The position numbers and the translations under genes were made by a program. This document shows positions 3,506-63,346 of a stretch of 64,000 bases of DNA, piece by piece. The notes below the pieces were generated by a model. It ran no database searches, was not told where the DNA came from, and was given only the letters and a program-made list of their open reading frames with translations. Origin of the DNA: Neoarius graeffei. Its lineage: Eukaryota > Chordata > Actinopteri > Siluriformes > Ariidae. Location of the stretch: NCBI RefSeq assembly GCF_027579695.1, contig NC_083589.1, forward strand, positions 31,835,335 through 31,899,334, given 5' to 3'. Numbering within the stretch: the first letter of the stretch is position 1; each line of letters opens with the position of its first letter.

Positions 3506-6104
3506 CTGTCTCTCTGTCTGTGTGTCTGCAAGATATCTCAAGAACCAATGGATCGATTTGGACCAAATTTTGTACGTGTTGCCAATCACCCAGGAAGGAA
3601 ACCATTAAATTTTGGAGGTCAAAGGTCAAGGTCATGGCAGAACTTCGAAATTTTCGCCCAATGTATTTTAATAGGGAAAAGGCGGGGTTTGCACTCGTTA
3701 GAGTGTCCCTGTCTAGTTTCTCTTAAATTAGTTGAGTGATTCTTGACATAATATGGATTACTACAGTTGTGGAATAGGGCTATTTACTGTATTATTATTA
3801 TTATTATTATTACTACTACTACTACGACCACCACCACCTCGCCCAGGACGGAGTCCACCAGGGGGCGAGGTATTGTTTTTGGTCGGGTTTGTTTGTTTGT
3901 AAACAATGTTACGGGAAAACGGCTGGACAAATCTTCATGAAACTTTCAGGATAGATGGCCGTTGGTCTCAAATAGAACCTCCAACATTTTGGGTGCCATC
4001 CGGCCAAAGTCAAGGTCACAGTGACCAGGTAAAAAGGTAATTTAAAAAAAAAAAAAAAAAGGAGCCCTCAGCTCAGACTGCTGCCTCGGAAAGACTCCAC
4101 CCACAAACATGCTGATTGGATCACTACATGCCTCATTTGCATACACTGCTGTCACTGGATGGCTTTAGTTCGTTTACATACGCAAAGGATGGGGTTTTGG
4201 CCACACCCACTTTGTTGATTTATTACTATAAATATAAATTATAAATAAATGGACTAGACTTAAAATTGCTTTCAGACACATTTATGCTTATTACAGAGGG
4301 AAAGTGCGTTCCACTGAGCTTCCACTGTCTGTACTTTATACTATTCTACTCTCACCTCTTACAGTTTTTGAAACTGAAACCTCCGAACCGAGGCTGACGT
4401 ACACACGCTGTCGCAGGGGGCGACAGAATCAGAACCATGTTTATTGGCCAAGTATGTTCACACACAAGGTCAAAATCAAGGTCAAAGTCACCAAAAAGGT
4501 CAAAAGTGTTTTCGCGATATCTTCCTTCATATTCATCGTAAGTGTTACCGGGTGAGGTTTGTTTTGCCTGGCAACACTTCTTGTTATTATTATTATTATT
4601 ATTAACTATTTGATCTCAAATGCATTAAGGCGGCAAGAAATTGCACTAATTACCTTTTGATGAGGCACCTGTTAATTGAAAAGCATTCCAGGTGACTACC
4701 TCATGAAGCTGGTTAAAGGGCTGATGACACGAACATGACTCTATGCAATTTCTTAAATAAACTATACAACATGGCAAACATGTTAGATTTCTGTTATAAT
4801 TATGTGAAAAGAAGCTGTTGTTACGCAAATATCCAACTTTTAATTGCACAGCGCAAGAAAACTGGGTCCGTGGCTCGCGGCCATGTTGTGACGTCAGCGG
4901 AAGAACACGCTGCGGTTCACTGGCTGTTCTACTCAGTGGAAATGGCGCATGAAAACGCCGGTGAACTCTCTAGCTCTTCCTCTTCTGGGAGTCTAGAATT
5001 GTGTTGTGAGTGGGGTAGATCGGAAGAATCAAGTGATGACGAACACGGGTGCATCCAACCGTACAGGTTTGAACCTGTTACTGTGCAATCTGAGAGCGAC
5101 TCCGACCCCGAGATGGACAGCGGACAGGCAGACAGCCCAGCATTGAACACCACAAGGTTGGATAACAAGGATTGGTAGGTCAACCCGTATTTGTTCAAAA
5201 TGTTACGGAATCAATATTTTAATATTGTGTATTGTTGTCTTGCATGTGTAAACACTGCTTATATTATGTAAGCCGTATGCTACACTGAATACATAGTTCC
5301 TAATGGCGCATGCAAACGGCTAACATAATAAGCTTACGACTATGCCTGATCTGTGATACATTTAGGATAATATTGGCAGGCACGTCTTCTAGTTTATGGC
5401 TTCTTAGTTTTATCCTTGAATGAAGCAAAATATTTGATAACCTACATCAGCGTAAGCAAATGACAATCTGTAGCCTACTTGTCTGGCCAAGTTAGCTTTC
5501 CCCTCAGTGTTTGCTTTGAGAAACAAGCTTTCACAAGCAAATACATGACTGATATCATGCCGACTTTATGATTACATTTATGATTATCATGAATGTGTAC
5601 TCTATGATGTGTACTCTATGAGCGCTCTGGAGCGAGTCACTTCCAAGATGGCCGCGCAGACCGCATGGTTACTATTTTTAGCATCATGTCGGAGCACTCT
5701 ATAGCTCTATGTACCTTTATCTTATGTCGTTTCTCAACACATGTTCTGACAGTTGGACTGTCTTTGGAGGAGTCGCCTTGTCCCAGGCGACTGCTGGATC
5801 CGGCATAGCTACTAGTAGACCCCCTCCGGAATACTGTAGGCACTGCTGATGGTAGCAGCACACGTTTGTGCTGAACTGAACACCCAAGAGATTCCTTTAA
5901 GCTGGGAAGGGTGTCAGAACAATCCAAATCGAAGTGTTCAGAGCACAGGACGGATGTTGGTGAGGGCTCCCACTTGTCACGAGTGCGCCTGACTTGCTTC
6001 ACCCACTTCGCATGCAGCTCGGGATCTCTGGGAAACTTGAATAAACTTACCCCATCCTTGTGGGTTTTGGAGCAAAAGCCGGCAACACAACGCGAAGGCA
6101 TAAT

Positions 6105-6144
<40 letters not shown>

Positions 6145-9100
6145 ATATAATAATGTATAATAATAATACTAATAATGATAAACTGAACACCTCTCGCATC
6201 AACAACAAACTGGTAAGTTAGGAGGAAGATTCTTTCGCTGACGTCATATAGCCCCTCCTCCTCTTTCGTCTCCTGGGTGCTGCAGCCCCGTCAAATTTGC
6301 CCAAATAGCTGCGTTTTTTATCATAACTTGTAAAATAGGTGCCTTCGTGAATTAATATATGGATCATCGGGAATTACTTTTTATGTTATAAAACATCGCC
6401 AAAGATGTCAAAAACGTGTCATCAGCCCTTTAAAGATAATGCCAATAGTGTACAAAGCGTCAAAGTAAACACTGCCTACTTTGAAGAACTTAAAATATGT
6501 AACATTTTTAACACTTTTTTTGTTTACCGCATAACATATGGAATTATTTCATAGTTTTCATGTCTTCAGTGTTGCTCTACAAAGCAGAAAATAGCCACAA
6601 CACAGAAAGACATATGAATGAGCAGAGTAGGGGTGTACGAACTTTTGGACAATACTATGTAACTAAAGTGGTCTGTAAATTATACTATATTGCTTGTTGT
6701 GGTCTCGGTTATCGACTCCAACTCAAAGACGGATTCCTGACTTGGATCAATGTTCTGAAGGTTTGCAGTAAATGTTAAGACACTGAAAAGCAGCGATAAA
6801 GCAGGCACCTCATACGATCAGGATAAACCGAACGGGAAATGAAGAGCTACCTCCATGATCTCATCGAGTGCCGATTTCTTTCTCTTCTCCTTGGAGTCGG
6901 CACTGTGAGACACATCTTTTCTTTTAGTAGAGGCTACCACTTTAAGCGCATTTGAACCCAGAGATATGCTGTGGAACAGAAAGAGGAAGGTTTAAAAAAA
7001 AAAAAAAATAAATAAACCGACAATACGGACATCTAAAACATCCTAAAACACAAGTTTGCATAAATGTACTATAAGTGGAGTAATGTTCCTGGAACTGAAT
7101 GCAACCTTGCTTTCGCTGGGCCTAAAGAGGAGGAGGAGGAGGAGGCGCTACCAGCCAAGTTGAAGGCAACTTTCTCTTCTTCATTCTCTCTCTTCAGTTC
7201 AGTAAACACGGGCTCCTCCTGCACATATAGCACGCCAACGTACGTTAAAACAGAACCTCTCAGAGCATCTCTCTCCATCTGTCTCAGTTTCTCTCTCTCT
7301 CCGTCTGTTTGCCTGTCTCTCCCTCCCTCCCTCCGTCTGTCTGTCTGTCCGTCCGTCCCCGTCTGGGTCTCTGTCTGTCCCCATCTGGGTCAGTCTCTCC
7401 CTCTTCCTGTCTCAGTTTCTCTCTCTCCATCTGTCTGTCTGCTTGCCTGTCTCTCCCTCCCTCCCTCTATCTGTCTGTCTGTCCCCATCTCTCTCCATCT
7501 GTCTGTGTCTCTCTCCCCATCTGGGTCTCTGTGTCTTGGTCTCTCCCTGACTGTCTGTGTCTCTCAGTCTCTTCCCATCTGGGTGTCTGTCTGTCTCGGT
7601 CTCTCCCTGACTGTCTGTCTCTCAGTCTCTTCCCGTCTGGGTCTCTCCTTGTCTGTCTGTGTGCGTCTCTGTCTGTCTCAGTCTCTCCCTCTCCCTGTCT
7701 GTCTGTCTCAGTCTCTCCGTCGGTCTCGCGCGCTCTCTCTCTCTCTGTGTCCGTCTGTGTCTCTCTCCCCATCTGGGTGGGTGTCTGTCTCAGTCTCTCC
7801 CTGACTGTCTGTCTGCCTGCCTGCCTGTCTCTTCCTGTCTGTGTCTCTCAGTCTCTTCCCGTCTGGGTCTCTCCCCATCTGGGTGTCTGTCTGTCTCTCC
7901 CCGTCTGGGTCTCCCCCTCTCTCTCCGTCTTTTTCTCTCTCTCTGTCTTTGTCTGTCTGTCTCTCTCTCTCTCTGTCTTGCACACCCACCTCCGGCTCCT
8001 TGCCCTCTCGGCCTCGTCTCACTTGTTCTTCAATAAACTTTGCGCTGCGCTCTTCATCGTCCAGATCCTGCTTCTTCTTCCTCTCCAGCTCTTCCTGCCT
8101 GCGGATTGTTTCTGGGTCACGATCAATGTACTGAATGTACCATCCTTTGGGCGTCTCGTCCACTTTACACAAACCTACACAAGGAAATGTGCAAAGTAAA
8201 AGGACGCAAGACAGACAAACATCGCTGAACTGATTCAATCTGTCCTGGTCTTATAATAATCACAGAATGATGGAGGGGTTTTCGACTCAGCTCCGTGTTT
8301 ACCTTCTCTCCCCAGCCACTTGGTGAAATCGGTAAGCGTCTCCCACTGAGTGGAGTTCATGTGAACGTGCTCCCGATTACTGATGTACTCATTATAGATG
8401 ATATTATTGTGAACTCGTTTTGTTCCTTCAAGAACAAAAACAGATATAGGCATTATACAATGAACAAACGCTGTGAAATGTGAATAAGTTTTCTATTTGT
8501 GACTATTTAGGAAAAAAGTGTAGAGTAATCGAACCAAAACGTCGTCTTAGCAGCTCCAAAAAGTCATGCTTGAACTCCCTGTGAAGAAGAAACACAAAGA
8601 AATGCTATTAACACAAGTCTGAGCTTTAAAGATCTCAATGTAGGATTATAAAATCATGCATCCACCCCGACTGAGCCAGAAACTAAAAGAATGGTGCTTT
8701 TCCCACTGGTCACTTTTAAAGTACCAAATATATTTGCTCCCGCCTCAAAACTGCCACCAACACGACTTAATGTTCTCCGAGACACGGCTAGAAGTACCGT
8801 CCATTTCTGACTGGTCATACATATTGCACCATACAACATGTGATACCACATTAAACTGACAAACAGCAACATAAATCTATGAGGAGTACACAGGAACTAA
8901 CTGTATCTGCTAAAATAACGTTAACCCAAATGACTGACGTCTTTGCTTTTATTGTTGTCACTTGACCATTCCTGGTGTCTATTCTTCGTGTGCACGGGAC
9001 GTCATAGCCAATTATGCACGAGGCTTTAAAGCAGAAGCCGTCCATGTTGGAGGATCTACACAAACTCACGCGGCGCACATTTACTATAGAAGATACGCTC

Positions 9101-9399
9101 GAGAGATTGTTATAATCAAGAATTCCTTTAGTTTCTTGGCTATGCCGACTCTTTGTGCTGTAATTGGATGCGGGCACAACTCTATTCGAGAGAAGGGGAC
9201 TTATACGCTCTTTAGAATTCCAGCAATTATAAATAATCAAGGAGGAAAAACGAGAGAGTTGTCCACAGAGTGTAGAAGTCACTGGCTGTCCAACATAAAC
9301 TGGGCTGATTGAAGTGATGAGAAAGCAAAAACCACACGAACCTGCAGTGAACATTTTATCAACAGTAAGTGCTACAAACTAGTTATTAATGAAAGATCG

Positions 9400-9437
<38 letters not shown>

Positions 9438-15400: not shown

Positions 15401-18400
15401 TGTGCAGCTCACACAGCGCGCGAGTGAAGTGCACAAGCTGTGATTCGGGACTGAGCCGCTGTGTGTGTGATCCCAGTGCATATCACTTACCACTTGCAAG
15501 TGGAAGGATGGCAAGCCTAAAGACAATCATAACTACACAATGGGCAGTATTTGCATCAGTATTTGCAGTATTTTCATAATTTTATACTCTTTAATGAAAG
15601 GTGATACAAGGCGGAAGTCCGCGCCATTTTTCAGCAGTCGCATCACATGACCAACGCCAGCGAATCAGGAAGGTGGATGTCACAGTGACGTTGTCCAATG
15701 AGACGCCAGCTAGGGCTGTGCCGATAGACGATGCCATCGTCCATCGACGATGGTGGTCATCCATCACGATGGAGAGCCACCATCGTGATACCACGCCCCC
15801 TCCTGTCATAAACATGCATATACGGTATCATCTGGGCCTATTTAACCTAAAAAGTTAGTTTTTTGTTAGTTTAGTTAGTTAGTTTTGTTTAATATATAAA
15901 TATATTATATAACATATATAAATACATAATTATATAAATCATTATAAAGTAATATTCTATTACCACTTGTTCACGTAGGCTATGGTGCAGGGACGTGCTA
16001 GTGAACATAACGTGGTTACACAAATACAGTATGCTACTAATAATAAATTTCGACTTCATTTTTTAGCCTACACTATACTTTTAATGTAAAATTTGTCATG
16101 TTGTTCAAACAAATAGCCACTATTAACAGTCGGGAAATATTTCACCTTATCAAACGGCAGTGAAGCGCAGACTTCGGCAGAAGTCAAATAACTTTAATCT
16201 GGTAAATAGGCCTACTTTCAGACTCAAAATGGTCCACTCTAAGCCATAATGTCAAACCAAATGGAAGAATGAAGGTGATTCTGATAAATGTAAAGACAGT
16301 TAAAAAAAAAAACAATATTAAATCATGATTTTAAAAGCTGGCGCAATAATTCAAACACTAATACATTGGAAAAAATTAGCGCGTTCAAGTGCGCACTAAA
16401 GGCCGAAACGCATCTTCAATTGATATGGTTATAAACAATGAGTAATAGCTTAAGTGTAGTTTCTTCTCATAGTTTGAATACTAGTCTTTCATTGTTGGAG
16501 CAGATTAATATCTTACTGTGATCAGTGAGTGCTCGGGGAGGTTCATTTCCACCTGCGCTTTGCGCAGCTCATTTCTCCGAAGCCAGCTGTGCGCAAACGC
16601 AGTGTTGACTGCTCGGCAAACTCCAAACGCTCGGTCTGTACTGGCCCTCTGTTGCGCAAGCGAGTTGGTTATGGCCAGGTTCAAATTGTGCCCAAAACAA
16701 CTTAACCACGGCCATTTCAATTGCCTGATGGCTGTGACAATATTCGCCCCGTTGTTGCAGGCGATCTTTTTCTCCTCTATTTTCCATTCGGCAAGTGTCT
16801 CGCGCAATGCGTCTTCTAAATTGTCCGCTGAATGTGTCTCTGGCATGAAACTCGTCTGCAGGCATTTGGACTGCATTGCCCACTCTCGGTCCACATAATG
16901 TACGGTAGCTGACATATAGGGCATCATGTTGCAGCTGGACCACATATCCGTTGTCAAGGCCAAATATTCCACATCACCGAGCGCTTTTTTTTCCTTTACG
17001 TGCCAAAGCCTCGGATGAGTATCTAATACTTTTAATAATAATAATATTAATAATAATAATAATATATTTAATAACGTGGTATTAAAATCCCCCCGCCCGC
17101 CCACGATATCATCGTCCATCACGATGTTTGCACTGTAAACATCGTCGATGCCAATTAAGGGGACATCGCACAGCCCTAACGCCAGCTAGAGCTCAGCACA
17201 GCGTATCCGCGTATTCTCAATGTTTACACAGCACCGGAGCTGACACGATCTGGATTGAATACGTGGACGCTGGCGGATTCCCGTTTCCCGGCGTTTCCAG
17301 GCGGTTTAATGTAAATGGACAGTGCATCCGCGAAGAAAACGAGACAGATACGGTCTAATGTAAACTTAGCCATAGAAATGCCTTGAGACCTCAAGAACGG
17401 CACAGGAATAGTTGTAAGCGTTAACAATAAATCTAATATACGGTAGTAATTTTTACGATTAAAGTGATTCATATAGGTAGCGGTCTGAGTGAATGACCTT
17501 GACATCCATAACGTCACAGCAGGAAGTCTATCGGTCTCATCGCCATTTCCGCTATACTAAAACACAGAGCTGACTGCAACTCCGATCCTCCATTTTGAGC
17601 CAATTTATCGCCATGACACGTAGACGTGCTGCTGGCGGGTGCAGCAACACAACAGAAGGTGGATTTACGTTGCATTCATGGCCCAAGAATGTTCAAACTG
17701 CAAAGATTTGGATGCGTTTTGCAAGAAGTTCACGGGCACATTGGGCGCCTATGAAGTGGTCTCTCCTCTGCTCTGCACAAGACTCGGATGAGACCTCTGA
17801 TCCGTTGAGGAGCGTTGGCTATAAGCCCGTATTGAAAGAGGGTACAGTACCAATAACTCAAGTAAAACATGAAAAGGAAAGCATTTTTTTTTCTTTAAAC
17901 TGAGTTCAGTTGTACCAGTTCTCCCGGAGCGTGAGCCGAGGGTTGTTGATAAAACCCGGGATGGAACATATCACTCAGGCAGCGACCTCCCTGCGGTTGT
18001 TGCTAAAACTGATGACGTCCCGTTCCGTCCCGGGTTTTAGTAATTGCCTGAGCCAAGCAGTAATGGCAGAGTACTCAGTATGGAGAAAACAGAGAATAAG
18101 TGTAGCAGCAGTCTGATTCCTAAACTGGATATTGCTGCCATCTCTCCCTTACATGGAAGAAGCGAATGAACAGAGAACTGAACGAACAACTGAAAGTCAG
18201 ATTGTTTCAAAACAAATCGGCCACAAGCTGGGCCTTCAAGAAGCGAGAACGCAGACGGGTAAGCTCCGACTCTCATTTGGATATAAAACAACAAAAACAC
18301 CATGTTGTTTACCTGCATTTAGATTAATACATGCAACTTGCATTGTGTGTTTAAGTTCCTGGTGTAAGATTATTTAATTTGCTTCAGAATGTGATCATCT

Positions 18401-22110: not shown

Positions 22111-22164
<54 letters not shown>

Positions 22165-25120: not shown

Positions 25121-25164
<44 letters not shown>

Positions 25165-26321: not shown

Positions 26322-26362
26322 ATGTTCACCCGGGCTAGCGCGGTGGTGTTCTTTCCACAATG
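26322..26362 (+). CDS. atp5f1c: ATP5F1C exon 1 (presequence)
   Basis: It encodes [13 protein letters not shown] plus two bases, the mitochondrial targeting peptide. The donor is GTAATG. The start is the only ATG in frame with the presequence. Confidence 0.92.
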
Positions 26363-34597: not shown

Positions 34598-34643
<46 letters not shown>

Positions 34644-44800: not shown

Positions 44801-44810
44801 GATGAAGAAT

Positions 44811-45671: not shown

Positions 45672-45837
45672 ATGTGTGAGAGCTACGCGCGCTCGCTGAT
45701 GCGGGTGGCGGTGGCGCAGCTGTGCCAGGCGCTGGGCTGGGACGCGGTACAGCTGTCCGCCTGCGAGCTGCTCTCGGATGTGCTGGAGCGCTACCTGCAG
45801 CAGCTCGCCCGAGGCTGCCACCGCTACTCCGAGCTCT
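45672..45837 (+). CDS. taf3: TAF3 exon 1 (residues 1-55)
   Basis: It reads MCESYARSLMRVAVAQLCQA, LGWDAVQLSACELLSDVLER and YLQQLARGCHRYSEL, the first helices of the histone fold. It is strongly GC-rich, with donor GTGAGT after one base of the next codon. Confidence 0.95.
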
Positions 45838-48800
45838 GTGAGTCTCTCACTGCTTTCTGTATCCTGTCTGCACGCACAAACCCACGTCCTGAGGGCATGC
45901 TCACATCTCTTTATCCTTCTTATCCTGGTAGTAGAACACCCGAGCAAGCTAACACTGGCTAAGCAGGGCTAGTTAGCTACAGGCTAACCGTCAACACTTG
46001 AGTTTTTCACGAGAAAGTTCTAGAAGTGTTTCTCTCAGGAGCTTGACGGGGAGAAGTCTGAACATGACCGAGTGCTTTGCTTTGTTGTTGTCTTGAAAGT
46101 TTTTATGACTGACTTCACTAAAAAAGCAATCATTATCAGCATCCCTGTCATGTTGAGTGCTGAACAGGTTGTCCACAGGGCTGCTTGTTATAGAGAGTGA
46201 ATCAGAATGCACTTTGTCATTTGCACATTAGCATGCAACACTTTTTTTTTTTTTTTTGCATTTCTTAAACTTCACTCTAGCTTTATTAAGTCAGCAGCTA
46301 TTAAACAAAGCTACTATATAAAACCTACACATTGTAGAAATGCATGCTATAAACAAACACTACTACAAATTAAATTAAAAAAAACAAAACCCTAGAATTA
46401 CCATGGCACACGAATCAATTAAAGCAGGTACACAGAACCTTTTGTTTTTAAATAAATTTCTGACTGGATCGTATCTCCATCCTTGACTGTTGTATGCTGC
46501 ATAAATGGGGAAAAAAAAATGTACAACCCCGATTCCAAAAAAGTTGGGACAAAGTACAAATTGTAAATAAAAACGGAATGCAATGATGTGCAAGTTTCAA
46601 AATTCTATATTTTATTCAGAATAGAACATAGATGACATCAAATGTTTAAACTGAGAAAATGTATCATTTAAAGAGAAGAATTAGGTGATTTTAAATTTCA
46701 TGACAACACATCTCAAAAAAGTTGGGACGAGGCCATGTTTACCACTGTGAGACATCCCCTTTTCTCTTTACAACAGTCTGTAAATGTCTGGGGACTGAGG
46801 AGACAAGTTGCTCAAGTTTAGGGATAGGAATGTTAACCCATTCTTGTCTAATGTAGGATTCTAGTTGTTCAACTGTCGTATCTTCCGTTTTGTATGTGTG
46901 AAAGATCTGGACTGCAGGCTGGCCAGTTCAGTACCCGGACCCTTCTATGCAGCCATGATGCTGTAATTGATGCAGTATGCGGTTTGGCATTGTCATGTTG
47001 GAAAATGCAAGGTCTTCCCTGAAAGAGACGTTGTCTGGATGGGAGCACATGTTGCTCTAGAACCTGGATATACCTTTCAGCATTGATGGTGTCTTTCCAG
47101 ATGTGTAAGCTGCCCATGCCACACGCACTAATGCAACCCCATACCATCAGAGATGCAGGCTTCTGAACTGAGCGCTGATAACAACTTGGGTCGTGCTTCT
47201 CCTCTTTAGTCCAAATGACACGGCGTCCCTGATTTCCATAAAGAACTTCAAATTTTGATTCGTCTGACCACAGAACAGTTTTCCACTTTGCCACAGTCCA
47301 TTTTAAATGAGCCTTGGCCCAGAGAAGACGTATGCGCTTCTGGATCACATTTAGATACGGCGGCTTCTTTGAACTACAGGGTTTTAGCTGGCAACGGCGG
47401 ATGGCACGGTGAATTGTGTTTACAGATGATGTTCTCTGGAAATATTCCTGAGCCCATTTTGTGATTTCCAATACAGAAGCATGCCTGTATGTGATGCAGT
47501 GCCGTCTAAGGGCCCGAAGATCACGGGCACCCAGTATGGTTTTCTGGCCTTGACCCTTACGCACAGAGATTCTTCCAGATTCTCTGAATCTTTTGATGAT
47601 ATGCACTGTAGATGATATGTTCGAACTCTTTGCAATTTTACACTGTCGAACTCATTGCATCTCATTATCTCTAGCCGCTTTATCCTGTCTTACAGGGTCG
47701 CAGGCAAGCTGGAGCCTATCCCAGCTGACTACGGGCGAAAGGCGGGGTACACCCTGGACAAGTCGCCAGGTCATCACAGGGCTGACACATAGACACAGAC
47801 AACCATTCACACTCACATTCACACCTATGGTCAATTTAGAATCACCAGTTAACCTAACCTGCATGTCTTTGGACTGTGGGGGAAACCGGAGCACCCGGAG
47901 GAAACCCACGGGGAGAACATGCAGACTCCGCACAGAAAGGCCCTCGCCGGCCACGGGGCTCGAACCCGGACCTTCTTGCTGTGAGGCGACAGCGCTAACC
48001 ACTACACCACCCTGCCGCCCGCGGATTGGTGATCCTCTTCCCATCTTTACTTCTGAGAGCCGCTGCCACTCCAGGATGCTCTTTTTATACCCAGTCATGT
48101 TAATGACCTATTGCCAATTAACCTAATGAGTTGCAATTTGGTCCTCCAGCTGTTCCTTTTTTGTACCTTTAACTTTTCCAGCCTCTTATTGCCCCGTCCC
48201 AACTTTTTTGAGATGTGTTGCTGTCATGAAATTTCAATTGAGCCAATATTTGGCATGAAATTTCAAAATGTCTCACTTTCGACATTTGATATGTTGTCTA
48301 TGTTCTATTGTGAATACAATATCAGTTTTTGAGATTTGTAAATTATTGCATTTCGTTTTTATTTACAATTTGTACTTTGTCCCAACTTCTTTGGAATAGG
48401 GTGTGTGTGTGTGTGTGTGTGTGTTCATTCCCAGAGTTAACAGCCAAGTGCGCATGACGTCACAGCAGGAACCGGTTTTCAAGTGCATATCCTGGACCAA
48501 TTTCATGTTTTTTTTTTTTTGTTTTTTTTTTTTTTTTAAATATCTGAAAGACTGTCCCTTTACACACTCATCCAGAAGGGTAATTTTGTACAAGGCCGTC
48601 TGTCTACAGTAGGGAAAAAAAAACGCGTCTGGAAAAATCCCAAGGGAGTCTGGAGCCAGATTCGTGACGTCACCTGCGGAAGCGCCAGCAGGCTGCGCGA
48701 GCTTTGCACGGTTTCAGTGCACAGCCTGTGTAGACCAAGCGCTCCCATTTCTCCCTCATTGTTCGGTCTTTTGGGAAACGATGAGTACTAATCCCATCAA

Positions 48801-51800
48801 GATTGGTGTTGCTACTAGGGATGGCGAAAACCTAAAAATCTTGACCGACCACTGAGCCTCAGCCTGTTAAAGTTGGTTAACCTATGAGTTTAAACAGGGA
48901 TGCAAACGGCGTGCCTTTTTCACGGCTCGTGCAGATCCGATTTTTTCACGAAAATCAATGCCGGGAAATCCAAATGCCAAGTTTTTTCAGAGGCGGACCA
49001 ATTTGCCTCAAATGGCTTGATTTCAACTGAATTTTTCTGGTATTGCACGGAATGTGACAGATGTTTGACCCAAGTTTAATATAAAATAGAAGAATTACAT
49101 TGATCTTGCTCCTGAATTTACCCGTGATGTGCACTTTAAGGCCGAGGCCTTTTACAGTGAAAGACCAAAGTCATATAAATAAAAAATTGATGGTGAAAGT
49201 AAGAAATACCGTTACCGACTTGCTCAACTAAGACTGATTTGACTTAACTGATTGTGAGTTGACTGTTATTAAAACAGGATAGGTGTTATAACTTGTGCAA
49301 CATACCGTATATGTACATGCATGCATTTTCACTGATAAAACGTAAAAGGCTAATTAAATAATCAGATGAACTGAGACAATCACATTCTGAAGCAAATTAA
49401 ATAATCTTATACCAATAACTTAAACACACAATACAAGTTACATGGATTAATCTAAACGCAGGTAAATTATTATTATTTTTTTTTGTTGTTGTTCTATCCA
49501 CATTCACTGGATTTTGAGAAATGGCGCATTTTTGTTTACAAGGTTAGTTAAAATTATGTTAACACGAATGGATTATTTTTCTCCTGCAGATAGACGTATG
49601 CCATGGGTGACCGATTAAATGGCCCTGTTGCTCGCTGTTTTTTGTGTGTTGAACACGATGGTCATCAGGTTGAGACAGTCTTGTAAATCATCTTGTACAT
49701 ATGATGTATGTTTTGTGAATAAATCGTTTCTACCATAATTTTGACCAACCCTGTATTTTTTGCAAATTCAATCAATAAAAACTTTTTGAAACATCTGATT
49801 ATAATTTCCGCTTAGAATGTAAACAAATTGGTGAAAAGACGGTAGTAATTTGTGAAAAATGCAATAATTCTTGAAAAATTAAAAAAAAAAAGCCATCAGA
49901 TACTTTTATTCCATGTTTTGTTGCGTTATTTATTTATTTATTTATTTATTTATTTGGGGGGGGGGGGTTGTTTTTGAGGAGGGTTTATTTTTTTATTTTT
50001 AATTTCGTCTTTGCTTTGTTCAGCAACACACACTGCTATCTTGTTTTTCTCTACTCACAGTACATGAACTGAGAGCCTCGTAGTAGAGTAGCCAATCATA
50101 GTGCGCGATTGCTCATATCCAGTGAATGTGGCTAGAATAAAAATAAACATCCTTCGTAGCCTTGTATTCTTTAAACTTAAAATTATGGCTTGAACGGCTA
50201 CTGACTCCAGAATTATGATGAGGACGTAGGTAACTATTTTACATTGATATCAAGAAGTCCATGACACATCTTGTATGTTAAAATTAATCTAGACTCTGTC
50301 CTTCTTGACTCGAGGTCAGTCCACCCCAGTTCTCTGAGCATGTCAGTGATGCGAGTAGTCGGGTGGGAGTTGTTTGCACAAAAACATGCAGCTTTTCTCT
50401 GCGCACGTTCGAGAGTACACATTCTTTTTAAACTAAAGTGCGGGTCCCAAGCTCCACAGGCGTATTCCAACTTCGGACGAACCTCTACTCATTGGTCCAT
50501 TCGTTGGCATGTGCACACGTTAAGAGAAGCTGTCAGTTGAATGAGAAGCAACTTATAAAAATATAATCGAATAATTGTCAAGTGTATAAATTTAGTGACT
50601 TGTGCAGTTATTGCACATTAGCGTATTATGATTGCACTTGAGGTAAAATTGTTGTGGTGGTTGAACAGTTAAGGCTCTCTGTTAATGATCTGAAGGTCAT
50701 GGGTTCAAGCCCCAGCACTAACAAGCTGCCACTGTTGGGCCCTGGAGCACTGTCATGTACCCCCTTGTTGTATGTCGCTGTAGATAAGAGTGTCTGCGAA
50801 ATGCCTGTGGTGACGATGGCAGTGGAAGGGTGTGAGTTCAGTTCACCGAGAGCTGTTGGGTACTCCGCTCCTGAGTCTGGAAGTGTGGGTCTTTTTAAGG
50901 CTCTGTAGCATTTTCCATCCTTTATGATGTTGCAGAGACAGCGAAATCTGTCAATGTTCTCCAGGAGGGGCAGGGGGAACCTTTTTTTTGGGGGGGGGGG
51001 GTTGTTGTATTAATAACCCTCTGAAGAGCTGCTGTGCCTGTTGCTGAAGACTGTTCTGCAGTATGTCCGTATGTTCTCAACGAAACAGTGGTAGAATGAT
51101 TCTCACAGCTTTGCAGAGAGGTTGGTCTCCCTCAGAGTCCTGAGGAAGTAGTGTCTCTGAGCCTTTTAGACTCGAGCAGTGGAGTTAACCATCCAGTTGA
51201 GGTCCTCACTGATGCGGGTACCCAGGAGCTCAAAACTGGAGACCCTCTCCACCTCGTCTCACCTTATTTTCAGTGGCAGGGGCTCCTCCTGTTGCCGTCT
51301 GAAGTCTATAAGGTGGGGTTTACATTAGACCGTATCAGCGGATCATCAGATTAACGTTTTTAAAACGATTTGCGTGCACACAGCAACAACAATACACGGA
51401 TACGCTCGGCTCCGCAGGCATCCTGCGCTCCAAATCACTCCGCCCTGAACAGCGAGTGCCCTCTGGAGGGTGCGCACTCCGGCCCTGCGCAGCTCACACA
51501 GCGCGCGAGTGGAGCGCACGAGCTGTGATTCGGGACTGAGCCGCTGTGTGTGAGATCCCAGCGCATATCACTTACCACTTGCAAGTGGAAGGATGGCAAG
51601 CCTAAAGACAATCATAACTACACAATGGGCAGTATTTGCATCAGTATTTGCAGTATTTTCATACTTTTATACTCTTTAATGAAAGGTGATACAAGGCGGA
51701 AGTCCGTGCCGTTTTTCAGCAGTCGCGTCACATGACCAACGCCAGCGAATCAGGAAGGTGAATGTCACAGTGACGTTGTCCAATGAGACGCCAGCTAGAG

Positions 51801-54800
51801 CTCAGCACAGCGTATCCGCGTATTCTCAATGTTTACACAGCACCGGAGCTGACACGATCTGGATTGAATACATGGACGCTGGCGGATTCCCGTTTCCAGG
51901 TGGTTTAATGTAAACGGACAGTGCATCCGCGAAGAAAACGAGACAGATACGGTCTAATGTAAACTTGGCCTAAGATGCTCCTTTGTCTTTTTGATGTTTC
52001 ATTGTTAATATGGTTATCTGTCCACCATTCAGTCAGATTGCAGACTTTTGCCCTCTGTCTTCCCAACACTCTGTCAATCTCTCAATACAGTTCAATCCCA
52101 TCACCTTAACTTTCCACCAGAGGGTTTGGGTTTTATGTTTACCTGCTGTTTTATATTGCTCACTCCTCATTCTACCACTTGCAGCCATTCAGATTTCTCA
52201 AGAGATCGCACGTCTGATGATTAAGGAAGAATTGTAGTTCTACATGTTTGCAGTCCAACAATGTATTGACTTCCTGCTCAAATACGTCTTTGGACTCGCC
52301 AGTTAATGACACGGGATTATTCCAGAAAACGTGTTTCACTCTTAACCCTGATTGGTTAAGTTTTCCCCATAAAACCCAGAGATCAGGGGGTTTGTTGGTT
52401 AACATGGCAGCTTGTGCTGTTAATTTGCTCTGTGGAAAGTTCACGTGAACTAAACCAGCCTCCGAAATAGACATGGGGTAATTGTAATCGTAATTGATTT
52501 GTAATTGATTACAATTGTATAAAAAAAAGTAATTTTATTCAGGAAACATGCTGTAACAAGCTAATATTTTGGCTAGGAAATTTCAGATGTGCTCAGAGGA
52601 AGTAAAAATCCAAACTGTTTTAAAGCATACTGTATTCCACTGTACACTGCACCCTTATGGGTAAAGTTTAAAAAGGCAAGTCTGCAGAAGGTACAGTTAG
52701 CCTATAATGACTGTTTAAGGATCCTACTTAGGAGACCAATGCCCCTTTTCCACCAAAGCAGTTCCAGGGCTGGTTCGGGCCCAGTGCTTAGTTTGGAACT
52801 GGGTTTTCTGTTTCCACTGACAAAGAACTGGCTCTGGGGCCAGAAAAACCGGTTCCAGGCTAGCACCAACTCTCTGCTGGGCCAGAGGAAAGAACCGCTT
52901 ACGTCAGCGGGGGGGCGGAGTTGTTAAGACCAACAACAATAACAAGACCGCGAAAGATCGCCATTTTTAAGCGGTGAGAAGCAGCAGCTGTACAAATGCG
53001 AAGTCATCCATTATTATTGTTGTTGCTGCTGCTGCTTCCGTGTTGTTTTTGCTTCGATATTCGCGCCAAGGTTTATGCAAATGTAGCGACGTAACTGACG
53101 TATACAGCGACGTAATGACGTAGCTCCGCAGGCTATGGAAAAGCAAACTGGTTCTCAGCTGGCTCGCAAGTTGAACGAGTTGTGAACCAGCACCAGCACT
53201 GGCCCCGAACCAGCCCTGGAACTGATTTGGTGGAAAAGGGGTACAAGGTGCTGTAGTGCTAGTGCCCTGTTCTGTAATGCAGGGGTCAGCACCTTTTTAA
53301 AGCTTTACTGAGGAACCTGATATATAAATTTATATGTTGCTTAAACGTGTCACAGAATGACATAATGGTGCTGATCAATCCCAGCTATAGTGTAATTCGG
53401 TACCAGTTACCAATATGGAGGTACTGGTATGATATATATATATTTTTTTTAAATTGATTGTTTTTATATTGGGCATGTGTAATCTGTGTACTTGGACCTT
53501 GAGTCTGGCAAATAAAGACTATGTAATTGCCATTATTGGTACCCATGATTACAATCATAGAAGTATAACAAAATTACATGATGGTAAAAATATAAGTGAA
53601 GAACATTGGTACCTTGTGTATACTGAACATCTTTGGTCCATTTACCTCCAGGGTCAGTAGACATTAACCCTCTGGGGTCTGAGGGTATTTTCTGGCACTC
53701 GAATGATTTTAACAAGCTCTGATTTTGTCAATTTCAATAAATCGTAAGCATTATTTTCAGTCGTATGACTTTTTTTGGTATTCAACACAAGTTCAGCTAC
53801 AGTAATATCCATGTAGTACGTATGTCATGATTGTACTTAAAAAAAAAAAAAACAACAGAGAAATTATGTTCTAAAATGCAGTTTTAGATCTGTGTTGGAA
53901 TGTGTGTGTGGGGGGGGACATGACCTTACCCGTTCTGTCGAACTGTTTTGGTCGCTTGAGTTGATTCTGTTCAGTCTTAGGAATGTATCAAACACACTTT
54001 AAATCTGCTCCATTGATTTGGACAGTTAACTGGCCACCAAAAAAATTGTCCTATTGTTTTGAGATAAAGGGTTGGCAGTGGGAGGGGTATTCAATGAGAA
54101 GATTAAAAATTTCCATTCATTCAAAGAGAAGTGAAACCCCCTCCCACTGCCAACTCTTAATACCATCAGGTCAGGTCCCAGTGGGTAAGGTCATGTGTTT
54201 TTTTTCACACATTCCAACACAGTTCTAAAACTGCTTTTTGCAACATCTTCATTTATCTGGTATTTTACTTTATTTTGGGATTTGACCCTATTCAGTGTGT
54301 CTTCAAATTAACTCTTGTAATATTTTACTCAGTTCAGAGCCACAACCTACTCTGTAATTTTGCTCCCACTCCAAACTCAAAGTAGAGCAAAATCAAAGAA
54401 CTGAAGGCAAATTTTTATGATCAATTCTATTTCTCATTTTATTAAATATAGGAATGCATTTTTGATCGCTGTTCTGTCACTGCTATAGCAAGTTATGAGT
54501 GTTTTGAAATATGCTATGTAATATCAGTCCATATGTCAAAGCAACGGCCGTAAACGAGATTCGCTGAGACCTGTGCGAGACATCGTAGGACGGAAGTAAA
54601 ATGTACAGCGGAAATCAAATGCCGCTTTTCCACTACAAACGCGGCTGAGCCGTGCCGTGCCGAGTCGAGCTGAGCGGGGCTGTTGGAGTTGCATTTCGAC
54701 TACAACCGCGCTGAACCGTGCTGGCTGGAAGTGGGTGGACACATTGGGTGGAGTTAGCGAAAGTGGGTGGACGTCACGTGATGTCGTTAAGCAGCGCAAA

Positions 54801-57800
54801 CAGTGACATCAGTGACAGTGGCGGAACAAGTCAGAGCCGGGCCGGGGGCGGGGCAAATGACCGGGCCCTTTATTAAAGCTTATCATAACATCATTTTAGG
54901 CTACAAAATGTCCGCAACTGCGGTGTTTACCAATTTCAACACTACCGGGTGCAACTATGTTATTTAGTACATCAAGTCCTTCAAACGAACATGTAACTCA
55001 GAAACAAAAAACATGAGGATACTGTACATGGCTCATAATAAAACAGCAATAGCCTATACTGCGCACATTATCTGAAGGGCATACGAATGAGCGCTCAGAG
55101 GTTGCAACGGTGACAGGAAGAGTCAGAAATAAAAGGAGGGCGGTGCAAACCTCACTGAATGCACTGTGTTTACCAATTTCAACACTACGGGGTGCAACTA
55201 TGTTATTTTGTACATTTAAGTCCTTCAAACGAACATGTAACTCAGAAACAAAAAAACATTCGGCGACATACTGTACATGGCTCATAATAAAACATCAATA
55301 GCCTACTGCGCGCATTATTTGAAGGGCATACGACGAGCCTTGCGCTCCGCGAACTCGTCCACGATGCTCTGTATGTCACTGATTCAGTGAGCTTTTAAGC
55401 GGTAGTCTCATGACCCGAATAGTAAACAATAAACATGGAGGACATGGAGTCGTTAGTGTTGCTGGTCTTGGTGCTGTGGCTTGTTGTCACCGACAACGCG
55501 GACAGATACTGGCAAGAGCGTATAGATGAGGCGAGGCGCATAAGGCTTCAGAAATTCTCGTAATTCTCCTTCTTCCGGGTTTGCGGTGTTTACAGATCCC
55601 AGCGCGCTCGCGGGGCGTGTGTGGGCATGTGAGGACACTCCTCCTCACCAATCAGTGCACAGGGGAGTGTCTGCTCACGCCCCCAACCTCAGTCGGCACG
55701 GCTTGGCTCGCTTCAGCCCCACTCCAAAACGGTGCGAGTTTTAGGGGCTAAGCAGGGCTGAAACGAGCTGAGTCGTGCTGGTTTTTGGTAGTCGAAACGC
55801 GAGCCGTGTCGGGCTGAAGCGAGCTGAAGTGAGCTGAAAAAGGGTAGTGGAAAAGGGCCAAAAGTGACCAACATCTGCCAACGTTATCAAAAGACGCGCG
55901 CGCCCTCTTTCGAATGCTGATGTAATCAAGCCGGAAGTTTTGTTTGTTTTGATCGCAGTCAGGAAAGTTTGAAAAAAGTAGGTAGTAATCATCATTTAAA
56001 CTTGTTTTTGTGCAGTACTTCGTTTGGAAAACAGTTTTCAAAATGGCGGCACTGACACCTGGCTGACGCTTCACGTTTCAAAGTCTCACACAAGTCTCGT
56101 GAAGATCGTGCGGATAAGCGACGCCTGCCGTGGACCGAACAAACTGAATTCAACATGGCTACAAACCCAATAGGCTGATAAGTATAATATTTAATTGCAA
56201 TTAGTTGCCAATACGAGTCCTGATATAAGGTTACTAAAACCGAAAACGTAATTGAACAACACGTTAATTAAGAAATAAAACAAGTTTAAAAATGCAGGGT
56301 TTTTTCTAGAAAAATTTAGTATGAGGGCGCTCACCATGGTGGGTGGGGGGGTGCCGGTTGTCCCCCCCCCCCCGTGCAAAGCCTTTCAAAAATGCTCCAA
56401 TGGGACATTCTGAGGCTATCTGAGAGGGAAATTGTAACAAATTGTCTGTCAACATTGAAAAAGAAAGAAGTAATCATCTTCTGCCCCGGACAGTCTTTGG
56501 CTTTCTTCCGCTTCGTGCCACGGAATTACATCTTTAAATGCCCAAGTGTCAACAAAAACAACTCGCGAACTACTTCTGTCAAAAGCTCCCGCGCCGGTGG
56601 GTGAAAGGTCATTCAGTCTCGAGAAATCTCGCTCTACAAGTCAGCTGACCTTGTATGGAACCCATGTCAAATCTCGCGAGAGCAGCCGCGACAAGTTAAT
56701 AACTAAACAACATGGCGCCTCAGTCTGGAAAACGCCAATTCGGATTGTTTTTGCACCGTCTGGTGGTGTATCTACTATGATTGGAATATTTTTAGAGCAA
56801 TTATAACGTATTTGATGATCAGATACATTGTCACGTAGTGTTGCTGGGATGTCTTCACGGAGTCGGTAAGGGGGCGCACGCTGAGGGTAAGGGGGCGCAC
56901 GCCGAGAGTAAGCGGGCGCAGCGCCCCTGTTCCCCCGTTTAGACGAAAGCCTGAAATGACTTCAGTTCCCCTTTAACTATTTTGAGAGAAATACTTTTAA
57001 CTCTGGGGGGGGCTGCTCAGTCACTTTTCCTGTGTATGCATTAGTGCTCACATCAACCGATCTGCTCATCAGAAATAGAAGAAAATTATGTATGTTTTCA
57101 CACATAGTCTCTTGCAGTTTAATGTACACTGGCCAGTTTTACATTACATTTTACGTTAAGACTAGATGTGAAAACATGCATAATGAAATTATAATAAATG
57201 TTGCAAGTAAAATTAACCTTGTTTTATTTTTCATCATTTGATTCATTGAGCAGTATTACTCATAAGTGCCTAAATTTGTCCCTAAATTGGTCAGAAGCAT
57301 TTGTCCATAACAGAACTTGGCACAGTATTGGCTGTAATTTATAGATGAAAGTCTTCCGGATTTACCCGGAAATCCGGATTTTTGACACAAACTCTTGAAA
57401 ATCTCCGGTTTTCCAAATGGAGAAACTGATTTTTTGCGTTCATAGACGCGGCGTAATACTTTGCATCGTCCTTGCATGGGCGCAGTCCTTAAATAGCCCA
57501 AACATAGTTCACTGATTAAAGACAGGTGTTCTTAGTTAACGGCGCGCGTGCCGGAGCTAAGGCGTGCAGGACTGACGCTGTTCTGCGCAAGCGCAACAAG
57601 CTCGCACTAGAAAGCATGTTCAAGCTGCCAGTGTAGCTGCAGTCTTTTTAGTTGCGAATTACGAGCATTTCCTCATGTAGTGCATTTCCAATTTTTAAAC
57701 TCGGATAAAAATTCGCCATGTCAAAACAAGCAAAAGTTTCCTCCTCCTTTCAACAGGAAGAGAGGTAAACAATTATTATATATTTTTTTTCCATCAAAGT

Positions 57801-60800
57801 TGCATTTTGTGGTTTCGAAGCGAAGTTTTAGTGCCATTTCTAGAACACATCAAGAAAACATGGAAGAAACAGCAATAATGGAGGACCTGGTTTCTAAGCT
57901 GCCTAAAACTAGTAATGGTCATTATTTTTTGTTACATCATGCACTCAGGCTGCCAGTGTGAGACACACACGCGCACCCTGAGACATCCTAGCCACGCCCC
58001 GATTTACATGAGAAATTTGGTCTTCATTGGTGTGTTTAAATTTAGACAATACGAACTAATGTAAACTATTGGCTTCAACTCAGATAAATATGAGTTGGAA
58101 ATGTTTAGTTCACTTTAGCGTCTGCAAACGCACAACTCTACTAAAAGATTGATAAACGAGGCTCAATGTCCAACATTGAAACCTGAAAGCTTTAGAAACT
58201 CTAAGGCCAAGTTTACATTAGACCGTATCTGTCTCATTTTCTTCGCGGATGCACTGTCCGTTTACATTAAAACGCCGGGAAACGGGAATCCGCCAGGGTC
58301 CACGTATTCAATCCAGATCGTGTCTGGTCCGGTGCTGTGTAAACATTGAGAATACGCGGATACGCTGTGCTGAGCTCTAGCTGGCGTCGTCATTGGACAA
58401 CGTCACTGTGACATCCACCTTCCTGATTCGCTGGCGTTGGTCATGTGACGCGACTGCTGAAAAACGGCGCGGACTTCCGCCTTGTATCACCTTTCATTAA
58501 AGAGTATAAAAGTATGAAAATACTGCAAATACTGATGCAAATACTGCCCATTGTGTAGTTATGATGGTCTTTAGGCTTGCCATCCTTCTGCTTGCAAGTG
58601 GTAAATGACTTGCGCACAGCGGCTCAGTCCCGAATCACTGCTCGTGCACTACACTCGCGCGCTCTGTGAGCTGCGCAGGGCCGGAGTGCGCACCCTCCAG
58701 AGGGCACTCGCTGTTCAGGGCGGAGTGATTTGGAGCGCAGCCGCTGAGGAGGAAGCGATGAGCCGCACTGACACATTTCAACTTGCGTGCCGAATTAGTC
58801 ATGTGATTAGCGTATCCGTGTATTGGCGTTGCTGTGTGCACGCGAATCATGTATTGGCGTTGCTGTGTGCACGCTAATCGTTTTTAAAAACGTTAATCTG
58901 ATGATCCGCTGGTATGGTCTAATGTAAACCCCACCTAACAGACCTTTACTTTTTAACAGGACTGTTTTGGGATTTTGCTGAGTTTACCTTCAACTGTCTG
59001 ATATTTTTCAAAGTAATGAACTGTGTAGCAGGAAAATCTCCGCGTTTTCTAAATGCACTCCTGAAAATTACTCATTAACTAGGGGAATTAAATTAGATGT
59101 TTTTGACATGTTAATCATTAATGTACATGAAAGAAAAAGGCTTAAAAGTTATAACTTGTTTTAGTGAAAATAAGTACTAAAATGCACTAGAATGCAGCGT
59201 TTTGTGTGTTGTTAATTTTTTTCGGGGGACCCCCCCCCCCCCCCCCCCCCAAAATATCTTAGTTTGACTTTCAAAAGTTCTTTTTTTTTTTTTTTCTTGG
59301 CTCCACTTTCATCTCTAGTAATTGTAATCTAAACTTGAGAAGTAATCGTAACTGAATTTCACATAATCGCCCCAGGTCTACTCCGAAGTCAACTCCACTT
59401 GCACTGGACAGCGGTCAGAGGACGATGTAAACATGTACTCTTGCATTGTTAACAGCTTTAATGGGTTAATATATACCCTCCCCCCCAACAATTTTTCTTA
59501 ATGTCATTTTATCTCAATTAAATTTGTATTTAATCCTATATTTATTGCATGCACGTGGACTCGTCTGTCCGTGGATTACGATAATTATTTCTGACACGTG
59601 GGCTTCAGGCAGTTCGTGACTTCTCACTATTTATAATCGTGTCTTATTTCAGCGTTTTCAAATCTAAAGGATGAATATGATGTCAGGGTGAAAACGTCCC
59701 ACAACACTAATGTGTGGAGAATGATTGATAGAATGCTGAAGATCATATGAATTAAATAAATACGAAGGCTGAATTTTTCAACAGTGTTGTCGTCTTTTTC
59801 CTCAGCAAGTGAGCAAAGGTGCCGTTTGGTCTGGTTTTTGTTACCCGGTGACTCTGATTCAGTGGAATTGTGTGAACTTGCATTTCTGTTCCTGCGCAGC
59901 TAGACCGCATCACGTGTGTTTTAAGTGTAGATACAACCGTGTGCATTTATTTACAAGCACACGCATGAGCTCTCACAGGTAGATAAGTTAAAGGAAAAAT
60001 CCACCCTCAGTGATTTTGCCTTAGTTTTGGAAATGATTCTCCTGTCGTAGCTCTAGGTCTCCTGTCGTTGTGCTTTTTTTTTTTTTCCTTGTTGTAGCTC
60101 TAGGTTCTCCTGCTGTTGCGCTGTTTTTTTTTTTTCTCCCTTCCTTGTCGCAGCTCTAGGTTCTCCTGTCGTTGCGCTATTTTTTCCCTTGTTGCAGCTC
60201 TAGGTTCTTCTGTCGTTGCGCTGTTTTTTTTTTTTTTTTTTTCGTTTTTTTTTTCCCCTTGTCGCAGCTCTAGGTTCTCCTGTCGTTGTGCTGTTTTTTT
60301 CCTTGTTGCAGCTCTAGGTTCTCCTGTCGTTGTGCTGTTTTTTTTTGTCCCCCCCCCCGTCGCAGCTCTCGGTTCTCCTGTTGTTGCGCTGTTTTTTTTT
60401 TTTTGTTTGTTTTTTTTTTCTTGTCGCGGCTCTAGGTTCTCCTGTCGTTGCGCTGCTTTTTTTTTTTTTTTTCCCCCCTTGTTGCAGCTCTAGGTTTTCT
60501 TTGTGCTGTAGTTCTAGGTTCTCTTGTTGCACTTTAAAAAAAAAATAAATAAAATTTTTCTTCAGGTAGTGCTTCGATGATCTTCAGTGCAGTTGATCGA
60601 AGTTGAATTCTAGTTGTATGAGAGACTTCTGTGTGAAGGTAAATTGTGCTTGGCCGCGGCAGAAGAGACTGTTCCCTGAGAGTTACACTAGAACCGGAAA
60701 TGTGTTCTTACCTTCACGCAGAATTTCTTGATTGAGATGTCCCTGGGGTGTCTTTAGTCAAGTCTTCAGATCAGTAAACTCAACACTCGGCTTTGTGTTT

Positions 60801-61212: not shown

Positions 61213-61420
61213 GTACGCTTTACAGAAGGGCTGTTCTCCCAAATATGCAGTGTGTACAGGAACGGATCTCAGTAAATCAGAGCAGGACCGGTTTATATTT
61301 CATATATAAATTCACATGACGATGATGGAGAGCAAAGCAACACAAACTTAAACCTAAAGTGTTACACTGCGACTGGGTTTAATGCAAAAGTTCACGTAAT
61401 TGTATCGAAACACAGAAATG

Positions 61421-61635
61421 CTCTCACTGCAGAACCAAAAGTCCAAGGGGTGGAGTGGGGCCTGGTGTAGCTCCTCCTACCTGGGCGGAGTTGGGACAGC
61501 GCTGTGTGTTTCAGTCTGGAGAAGTGCGCGTGTTTGCATGTTGGACAGTGTCTTGTGGGCGAAGGTTGGAGTTAGGCTGATGGGAGATGGATCAAGTCTC
61601 ACTCCACCCCTTGGATGTTGGTTCTGCAGCGAGGG
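61421..61635. repeat. Inverted repeat with arms of about 33 bp
   Basis: CTGCAGAACCAAAAGTCCAA with GGGGTGGAGT at the left is mirrored by ACTCCACCCCTTGGATGTTGG and TTCTGCAG at the right. The loop is about 150 bp. It lies about 210 bp after TAF3 exon 2; probably a small mobile repeat. Confidence 0.6.
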
Positions 61636-61858
61636 CAATCTGCTTTTTTTGGGGGGGGGATTGGCTCTGTGGTGCACATGTGCATGATTTCAGTGACATG
61701 CGAGTTGAGATTTTCTCAATTTTATGCAAATTAGTGTCTTGCAAAAGTATTCATCCCCCTTGGTGTTTGTCCTGTTTTGTTGCATTACAAGCTGGAATTA
61801 AAATGGAATTTTTTGGGGTTAGAACTGTTTGATTTACACAACATGCCGACCACTTTAA

Positions 61859-63332
61859 AGGACATGGGACATGAAACATAAATGCACGCTATATCAGTTT
61901 CTTTCCATTAAAAATATGAAATTGCATCAACAAATACAAAATTATCTATTAAATTCAGCAAAATCGTTATATTCGTGATGATTATATGGCATTTCTGCTC
62001 GAGCTCCGATATGCATATTTTACAACCGGAAGAGCCGCTGTCACGTGATCATACGTCACAAAAACTTTCGGGTACAGCACAAGCGGGTAGATGAATATGG
62101 AGAAGTGTGAATCGTGATGATGACGAATGCGACAAAATAGTTTTTGTGTCTTGGATGACAAGAAAATTGTTTCGTTTTTAGAGTGTTTAACGTACATTGA
62201 ACATCATGGTGTATTGCGACCTCCCAGTCAGTCAGACGCAGTCAGACGCGCTGTCACTCCTGTTAGCAATGTAGCTAGGCTCAGCATGGCCAACGGTATT
62301 TTTTGGGTCTGTAGTTAGATGCGACCAAACTCTTCCACGTTTTTCCTGTTTACATAGGTTTATATGACCAGTGACATGAAACAAAGTTCAGTGACACAAA
62401 TTGAAACGTGGCGATTTTCTATGCTATGGAAAGTCTGCACTATAATGACAGGCGTACTAACACCTTCTGCGCGCTTCGGCAGCGCATTGATACCTTCACT
62501 CGGAGTTGTACCATTATTTTTTAGACAGGGCGGACGGACCAGGGCATTCGCCCGCCTGGCCGTGCCCGACGAGGAGCGCTCTCGGCCGGCTTGGGAGGCA
62601 GACGGCAGCCCCTCCTGGAAGTGTGGTTTTACCATGGGCCTCATGCGGTAAGGATTAGGATTATAATTTTGGGTGTATCAGTTATTGATTATCATAATTC
62701 TGACTCGTTTCGCCATTTTGAATGTTTTCATCTCGGACTCTGGAAGCATTGTATCTCAATCAATCTCGAAAAATATCAGCAAAAAAAAACTAGCTTGCAA
62801 CGGACTTTAGCTAGATCTATGATGAACTTTCAATGTATGATACAAAAATAATACTTCTTTCAACAGATCATTAGCCTTTGAGCAGATTTGTTTTTAACTT
62901 ACCAGGAAGTGTTATCGAGCCGACCGCTTTCAGTTTCATGGGGATTGAATGAACTCTCACTCTCAGAATCATCTGACCCGTCAGAGTAAAGACAAGATCC
63001 ATGTTCATGCGAATTTCCAGCTATCGGTTCGAATTGATAGGGTCTAACTTCACATCTCTGTGAAACATCAGGAATATCACTGTCGATGGTGTCCATTTCG
63101 GTAACCTGTTTACATTAGATTCCCAAGCGCTGGCTCCTTGGAAAGTTTTTGTGACGTCACGGGTCACGTGACCACCTAGCTCATTAACGAATCATTGTTT
63201 TACGCTGATGTATGAAAAAGTTGAATAATGTGGTGATTTTCACATTTTTGACGCCCTGCAGTGATTTAGATGGCATTTCTTATGTCCTTTATACATAATT
63301 ATACCCAGAAAAAAATCCATGTCCCATGTCCT
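61859..63332. mobile_element. Kolobok-like DNA transposon, copy 2 (TTAA target)
   Basis: Perfect 15 bp ends AGGACATGGGACATG are flanked by TTAA (61855-61858, 63333-63336). The ends start AGG like copy 1 but are otherwise a different sequence. It carries a P2X7-like leader exon on the minus strand at the right. The left half has open frames I cannot assign; no THAP domain or transposase is seen. Confidence 0.7.
62903..63096 (-). CDS. Transposon-borne P2X7-like leader exon, copy 2
   Basis: The frame reads MDTIDSDIPDVSQRCEVRPY, QFEPIAGNSHEHGSC, an acidic serine-rich part and GRLDNTSW, ending at donor GTAAGT within the tryptophan codon. The layout is the same as 4942-5174: PY-x-FEP, acidic stretch, RLDN-xx-W, donor. 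Similarity to P2X7-like fish proteins is from memory; no search was done. Confidence 0.45.
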
Positions 63333-63346
63333 TTAAAGGTGCACTT

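Follow-up and report, generated by a model that had tools for sequence, protein, structure and literature searches.

In a 64,000-nucleotide stretch of the Neoarius graeffei genome (contig NC_083589.1, positions 31,835,335 to 31,899,334; below, the window), we find two short TTAA-flanked elements. The best interpretation of both is that they are nonautonomous Kolobok transposons, shortened by internal deletion, which keep first exons of inward-facing genes for a transposase and for the accessory protein KolX. Kolobok derivatives that carry the inward-facing starts of these two genes are, in our judgement, very probably the explanation of the observations as a whole. The two elements differ in their terminal sequences, and share a leader exon that breaks off within a tryptophan codon. 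Their features are as follows.

Element 1
4717..6429, unstranded: whole element, 1713 bp, with TTAA on either flank and 15-bp terminal inverted repeats that match perfectly; read as a Kolobok-type element, nonautonomous through internal deletion
4713..4716: TTAA target site, left
6430..6433: TTAA target site, right
4717..4731, + strand: left terminal inverted repeat
6415..6429, - strand: right terminal inverted repeat
4889..4905, + strand: left arm of the subterminal inverted repeat (94%); TGACGTCA begins at base 173 from the end
6230..6246, - strand: right arm of the subterminal inverted repeat; TGACGTCA begins at base 184 from the end
4942..5174, + strand: putative leader exon of a KolX-like gene; PYRFEP, acidic serine stretch, RLDNKDW; donor TG/GTAGGT in the Trp codon
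5637..6101, - strand: THAP open reading frame (ORF), 154 codons including the stop; C-x4-C...C-x2-H, then AVPTVF; convergent to the leader exon

Element 2
61859..63332, unstranded: whole element, 1474 bp, with TTAA on either flank and 15-bp terminal inverted repeats that match perfectly; read as a Kolobok-type element, nonautonomous through internal deletion
61855..61858: TTAA target site, left
63333..63336: TTAA target site, right
61859..61873, + strand: left terminal inverted repeat
63318..63332, - strand: right terminal inverted repeat
62053..62069, + strand: left arm of the subterminal inverted repeat, ACGTCACAAAAACTTTC (100%); a partial TGACGTCA site only, not the full one
63141..63157, - strand: right arm of the subterminal inverted repeat; one TGACGTCA begins at base 174 from the end
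62903..63096, - strand: putative leader exon of a KolX-like gene; PYQFEP, acidic serine stretch, RLDNTSW; donor TG/GTAAGT in the Trp codon

According to Kojima and Bao (2022, PMC9587614), Kolobok elements of the Kol0 lineage encode a transposase together with KolX, a protein that resembles residues 476-595 of human P2X7, and P2X7 originated when a P2X4-like gene was fused with KolX. The ballast domain had been described across animals earlier, in a paper (PMC7016195) whose main text does not name transposons. That the cytoplasmic domain of P2X7 came from Kolobok is therefore already published; the present case adds detail to that account and does not originate it.

Inverted ends and subterminal repeats

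With the target site included, the arms of element 1 (TTAA followed by AGGGCTGATGACACG; 4713-4731 and 6415-6433) are 100% complementary, as are those of element 2 (TTAA followed by AGGACATGGGACATG; 61855-61873 and 63318-63336). Thus the original prediction, which was made from the letters of the window and which claimed two elements with unrelated 15-bp inverted ends, both starting AGG and both flanked by perfect TTAA, was correct in this respect and in the positions that it gave.

Among the 454 TTAA sites of the window, six pairs at distances of 100-8000 bases enclose inner ends that form a perfect 15-bp inverted repeat. A TTAA-bounded inverted pair is thus not by itself rare here: four of the six sit inside longer inverted repeats, and the remaining two are elements 1 and 2. 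When only ends starting with AG are considered (36 left and 37 right), five pairs lying 150-9000 bases apart have at most 5 mismatches in 14, and elements 1 and 2 alone are perfect. Exact 10-bp inverted pairs number eight (one of them poly-A), compared with a mean of 0.08 and a maximum of 1 in 60 dinucleotide shuffles. With up to three mismatches in 15 allowed, neither of the two terminal sequences was met beside any other TTAA of the window.

Further inside, each element has a 17-bp subterminal inverted repeat, which opens with TGACGTCA in element 1 and with ACGTCA in element 2. There are nine copies of TGACGTCA in the window, three of which lie 172-183 bases inside three of the four element ends; no random placement of nine sites in 200,000 brought three of them near the ends, for an interval that was picked after the data had been seen. 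Counted from the respective element ends, coding begins at bases 226 and 237 for the two leaders and at base 329 for the THAP ORF. On the simplest reading, each element end would bear a similar promoter, the pair driving two facing genes whose first coding parts survive.

One further end-like sequence, AGGTGCACTTTATTT, follows directly upon the right TTAA of element 2 (63333 onward). A neighboring element of Kolobok type might begin here and extend toward or past the end of the window; the scan of the window for AG-type TTAA pairs found no partner for it.

A leader exon common to two families

The original prediction described an exon, present in both elements, with a PY-x-FEP motif, an acidic serine stretch, RLDN-xx-W and a splice donor inside the Trp codon, and this description is borne out. 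The leader of element 1 is open over 77 codons and finishes with RLDNKD and the first two bases of a Trp codon, after which comes GTAGGT; that of element 2 is open over 64 codons and finishes with RLDNTS and the same two codon bases, after which comes GTAAGT. Across the six frames of the window the combined pattern PY.FEP...RLDN..W occurs twice, as against no occurrence in 100 dinucleotide shuffles. Each half of the pattern is likewise confined to the two leader exons (shuffle means 0.01 and 0.02).

Aligned locally, the two leaders score 61, when shuffles have a mean of 29.9 and reach that score in 2 of 5000 cases; the global score of 49 is matched by 10 of 5000 shuffles. In a single BLASTP comparison the core IQPYRFEPV/VRPYQFEPI gives E 5e-4, while a second aligned piece, at E 0.72, is meaningless. 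By tblastn each leader retrieves the other from the window along the stretch from the core to the Trp (E 0.002 and 0.001). The acidic, serine-rich stretch between the motifs aligns poorly. The leaders are also alike in subterminal position, inward orientation and donor phase, despite the different ends of the elements that carry them.

At the level of DNA the two elements have no significant similarity (best E 0.09). Since the match appears between the proteins and not between the DNA sequences, we treat the elements as two families rather than one, and the resemblance of the leaders is probably old, judging from its restriction to the protein level. Databases offered no relative: phmmer with the leaders, and a profile built from both exons, returned nothing from the PDB, NCBIfam gave no match, and the motif PYxFEP, tried in six spellings, was not found in print in a text search of the literature. 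In contig collections, the alignment of the two leaders gave six pattern stretches in viral contigs and nine stretches in genome contigs, the THAP piece gave nine stretches in viral contigs, none of these being confirmed, and the ballast motif pattern gave none in viral contigs. The collections scanned are viral or prokaryotic, so that their silence says little about an animal transposon.

Within element 1, the start of the leader (AATGGCGCATGAAAACG, 4941-4957) is repeated with one mismatch 361 bases downstream, at 5302-5318; the repeat is perhaps filler DNA left by an internal deletion.

What does the leader have to do with P2X7? The original prediction went further than the motifs and proposed a P2X7-type domain as cargo of Kolobok-like transposons. 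As a statement about Kolobok this is true and published (KolX of Kol0; PMC9587614), whereas as a label for the leader itself it does not fit. We tried the leader directly as the P2X7 cytoplasmic domain, and rejected it, since searches of Pfam, NCBIfam and the PDB gave no profile match. It would lie upstream of the P2X7-like part without being P2X7-like itself, and it is likely to be KolX exon 1. The link is one of position only: the leader ends inside a Trp codon, and the published similarity between KolX and P2X7 starts at residue 476, which is Trp in four solved P2X7 chains (reading W-C-Q-C-G from 476). KolX has a ballast fold with seven conserved cysteines; what the elements offer of such a protein is a leader alone, ending at the Trp from which the ballast would continue. 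In the window at large, tblastn with the ballast piece found nothing better than E 0.27, and the motif C.CG.C occurs once (35981, - strand), compared with a shuffle mean of 0.31.

The THAP reading frame and the assignment to Kolobok

The original prediction missed an ORF on the opposite strand of element 1. Its THAP domain matches PF05485 of Pfam with 61.2 bits (E 1.6e-16), its best solved chain is THAP2 (E 1.3e-9), and an AVPTVF box follows. This ORF is best read as the first part of a Kolobok-type transposase. It is the longest ORF in element 1, and at 154 codons it is too short for an intact transposase gene.

Kolobok transposases usually carry DDE, THAP and H2CH motifs, with an AVPTIF box as part of the THAP domain (PMC6004289), and the signature given in contrast to piggyBac is TTAA with 5'-RR termini (PMC9587614). 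Both of our elements have the 4-bp TTAA target site duplication and 5'-RR...YY-3' termini (AG...CT), and element 1 alone has a THAP (C2CH) domain with an AVPTIF-type box. We therefore assign element 1 to Kolobok because of its TTAA, its AG...CT ends and its THAP/AVPTVF combination, and element 2 because of its ends and the shared leader exon, in agreement with the Kolobok-like assignment originally predicted. Within Kolobok, we place them tentatively in the Kol0 lineage. For comparison, trimmed transposase coding sequences measure 2202-2421 bp among the Xenopus table rows listed, and ten full-length Xenopus Kolobok copies measure 6.8-13.9 kb (both PMC6004289). Since the elements here are only 1713 and 1474 bp long and neither holds an intact transposase gene, they are filed as nonautonomous derivatives only. 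No ORF of at least 120 codons is present in element 2.

The closest described systems compare with the elements as follows. Kol0 elements of the Kolobok-1_XT type (PMC9587614) have the TTAA duplication, the RR...YY termini and a second protein beside the transposase, and the residue at which P2X7 similarity is published to begin, 476, corresponds to the break of our leader at a Trp codon; they differ from the present elements, which are 1.5-1.7 kb long, in which coding for DDE or ballast was not found and of which element 2 has no detected THAP. The Xenopus XKol and T2-MITE elements (PMC6004289) share with ours TTAA, AGG ends and THAP with an AVPTIF-type box. The XKol A3 subfamily and element 2 both begin with AGGACATG, which is common to the end of element 2 and the Xenopus end AGGACATGTCAACCCC; the T2-MITE motif AGGRR, on the other hand, is not matched exactly here (AGGGC, AGGAC). 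KolX has no occurrence in that Xenopus paper. The P2X7 cytoplasmic ballast and nanor (PMC7016195) are proposed descendants of KolX (PMC9587614), and differ from what we observe in that no ballast sequence was found in the elements and the leader has no P2RX7_C match.

Several results weigh against the explanation that we favor. A Pfam scan of ten of the twelve element frames (all six of element 2; four of the six of element 1, the THAP frame included) found no match beyond THAP, and hence neither DDE nor ballast, with the limits that the existence of a Pfam model for this transposase core was unchecked and that H2CH was not searched for as a motif. The same scan found no THAP remnant in the six frames of element 2. 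The word THAP has no occurrence in PMC9587614, so that the tie between THAP-bearing Kolobok and Kol0 with KolX rests on two separate papers. The interval used in the TGACGTCA promoter test was fixed post hoc. Finally, the comparison of the leaders with the P2X7 cytoplasmic profile, set beforehand as a test of the original prediction, came out negative: neither leader matched any Pfam family at E ≤ 10, P2RX7_C (PF20478) included. PF20478 does find the ballast piece itself (E 1.5e-56, 191.8 bits, from model position 81), and leaders joined to that piece score 200.4 and 198.3 bits. Four shuffled versions of each leader, joined in the same way, score 198.6-200.1 and 198.5-199.6 bits. Leader 1 is thus 0.3 bits above its best shuffle and leader 2 below all four of its own, which is no clear gain. 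The front part of the profile cannot tell the leaders from noise, and the test is a weak one.

The same results lend some support to a different explanation, in which the elements are of Kolobok type but the leader comes from another accessory protein, one without ballast, or from a host gene captured twice: no profile ties the leader to P2RX7_C, and the ballast exon was not found in the window. Yet the exon stops at Trp, the very residue where the published similarity of KolX and P2X7 begins, KolX is the accessory protein described for Kol0 (PMC9587614), and two families with different ends agree in the subterminal position, inward orientation and donor phase of the leader. We consider this explanation unlikely. 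Elements of the piggyBac superfamily likewise duplicate TTAA, as seen at both elements, and PMC9587614 contains a remark on piggyBac and KolX; but the termini here are purines (AG), and so not the non-RR ends of piggyBac, against which that paper sets 5'-RR, and element 1 has THAP with AVPTVF, which makes a piggyBac origin highly improbable. Chance, in the form of TTAA-bounded inverted repeats and a coincidence of motifs in repeat-rich DNA, could appeal to the four other perfect 15-bp pairs, all in longer inverted repeats. It would also have to produce the paired motif twice when 100 shuffles produced none, the confinement of perfect AG-type ends to these two elements, and a THAP domain inside one of them, and we give it almost no credence.

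Under the Kolobok explanation, a full-length relative would possess two inward-facing genes, one for a THAP-containing DDE transposase and one for KolX. Both would begin a few hundred bases from their respective ends and be preceded by similar subterminal promoters. Internal deletion would have taken the catalytic domain and the KolX ballast exon and spared the ends, the promoter-like repeats and the initial coding portion. In element 1 this portion would survive for both genes, whereas element 2 showed it only for KolX. Full-length copies would supply transposase in trans, which would excise the elements at their terminal repeats and integrate them at TTAA.

The case belongs to a known kind of system. 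Its useful detail is that a single short element carries a THAP ORF and a leader ORF that converge, together with matched subterminal repeats. Two unrelated families support, at the sequence level, the start of a KolX-like gene just inside one Kolobok end. In element 1 this gene lies opposite the transposase gene, and in both families a predicted splice donor falls in the Trp codon at which the P2X7-like part would start. The layout is relevant to the question of how splicing could have brought the ballast into a P2X gene.

Might element 1 still have a function? In Drosophila, the KP derivative of the P element makes a truncated DNA-binding protein that damps transposition. Element 1 keeps an intact 154-codon THAP ORF and, with promoter-like repeats matched at its two ends, an open KolX leader. 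A THAP-only protein might similarly bind Kolobok ends and damp transposition, and selection, whether on regulatory products or on subterminal sequence acting in cis, might then have retained the leaders of both families. We regard this as an improbable, speculative extension.

Other sequences in and around the elements

The middle of element 2 holds a segment (62525-62647) of about 68% G+C in an otherwise A+T-rich element, with exon-like borders (AG and GTAAGG) and open on both strands. Three translated pieces of this interior, two over the segment and one upstream, gave no Pfam match at E ≤ 1. The segment is possibly captured host DNA.

Three further THAP-like fragments occur in the window, at 9142-9357 (+), 17613-17852 (+) and 48733-48813 (-), with Pfam E-values of 3.6e-8, 5e-4 and 1.5e-3; the last two fall below the family cut-off. 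No well-matched AG-type TTAA pair surrounds any of the three, the pair 2061/9580 around the first having 5 mismatches in 14. Rfam at gathering scores and the tRNA search gave no match in the window.

About 1.3 kb from element 1, an ORF on the - strand (7711-8238) encodes part of the winged-helix domain of KIN17 (PF10357, E 9.5e-14), a host gene exon; ten short KIN17 motifs used to look for further exons gave a single real match, at 8142. ORFs for Tc1-type transposases lie on the - strand at 22815-23306, 39264-39902 and 46869-47606 (DDE_3 and/or HTH_Tnp_Tc3_2), the domain matches of the last being at or below the cut-offs. A large inverted repeat at 51423-58740 has arms of about 550 bp that are 94% identical and 6.2 kb apart; its three + frames gave no Pfam match, and related copies lie near 15202, 17179 and 27360. 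A dispersed repeat of about 370 bp, in full or partial copies that are mostly 89-99% identical and in both orientations, occurs at 3014, 22208, 24081, 24990, 29837, 30695, 40441 and 47658.

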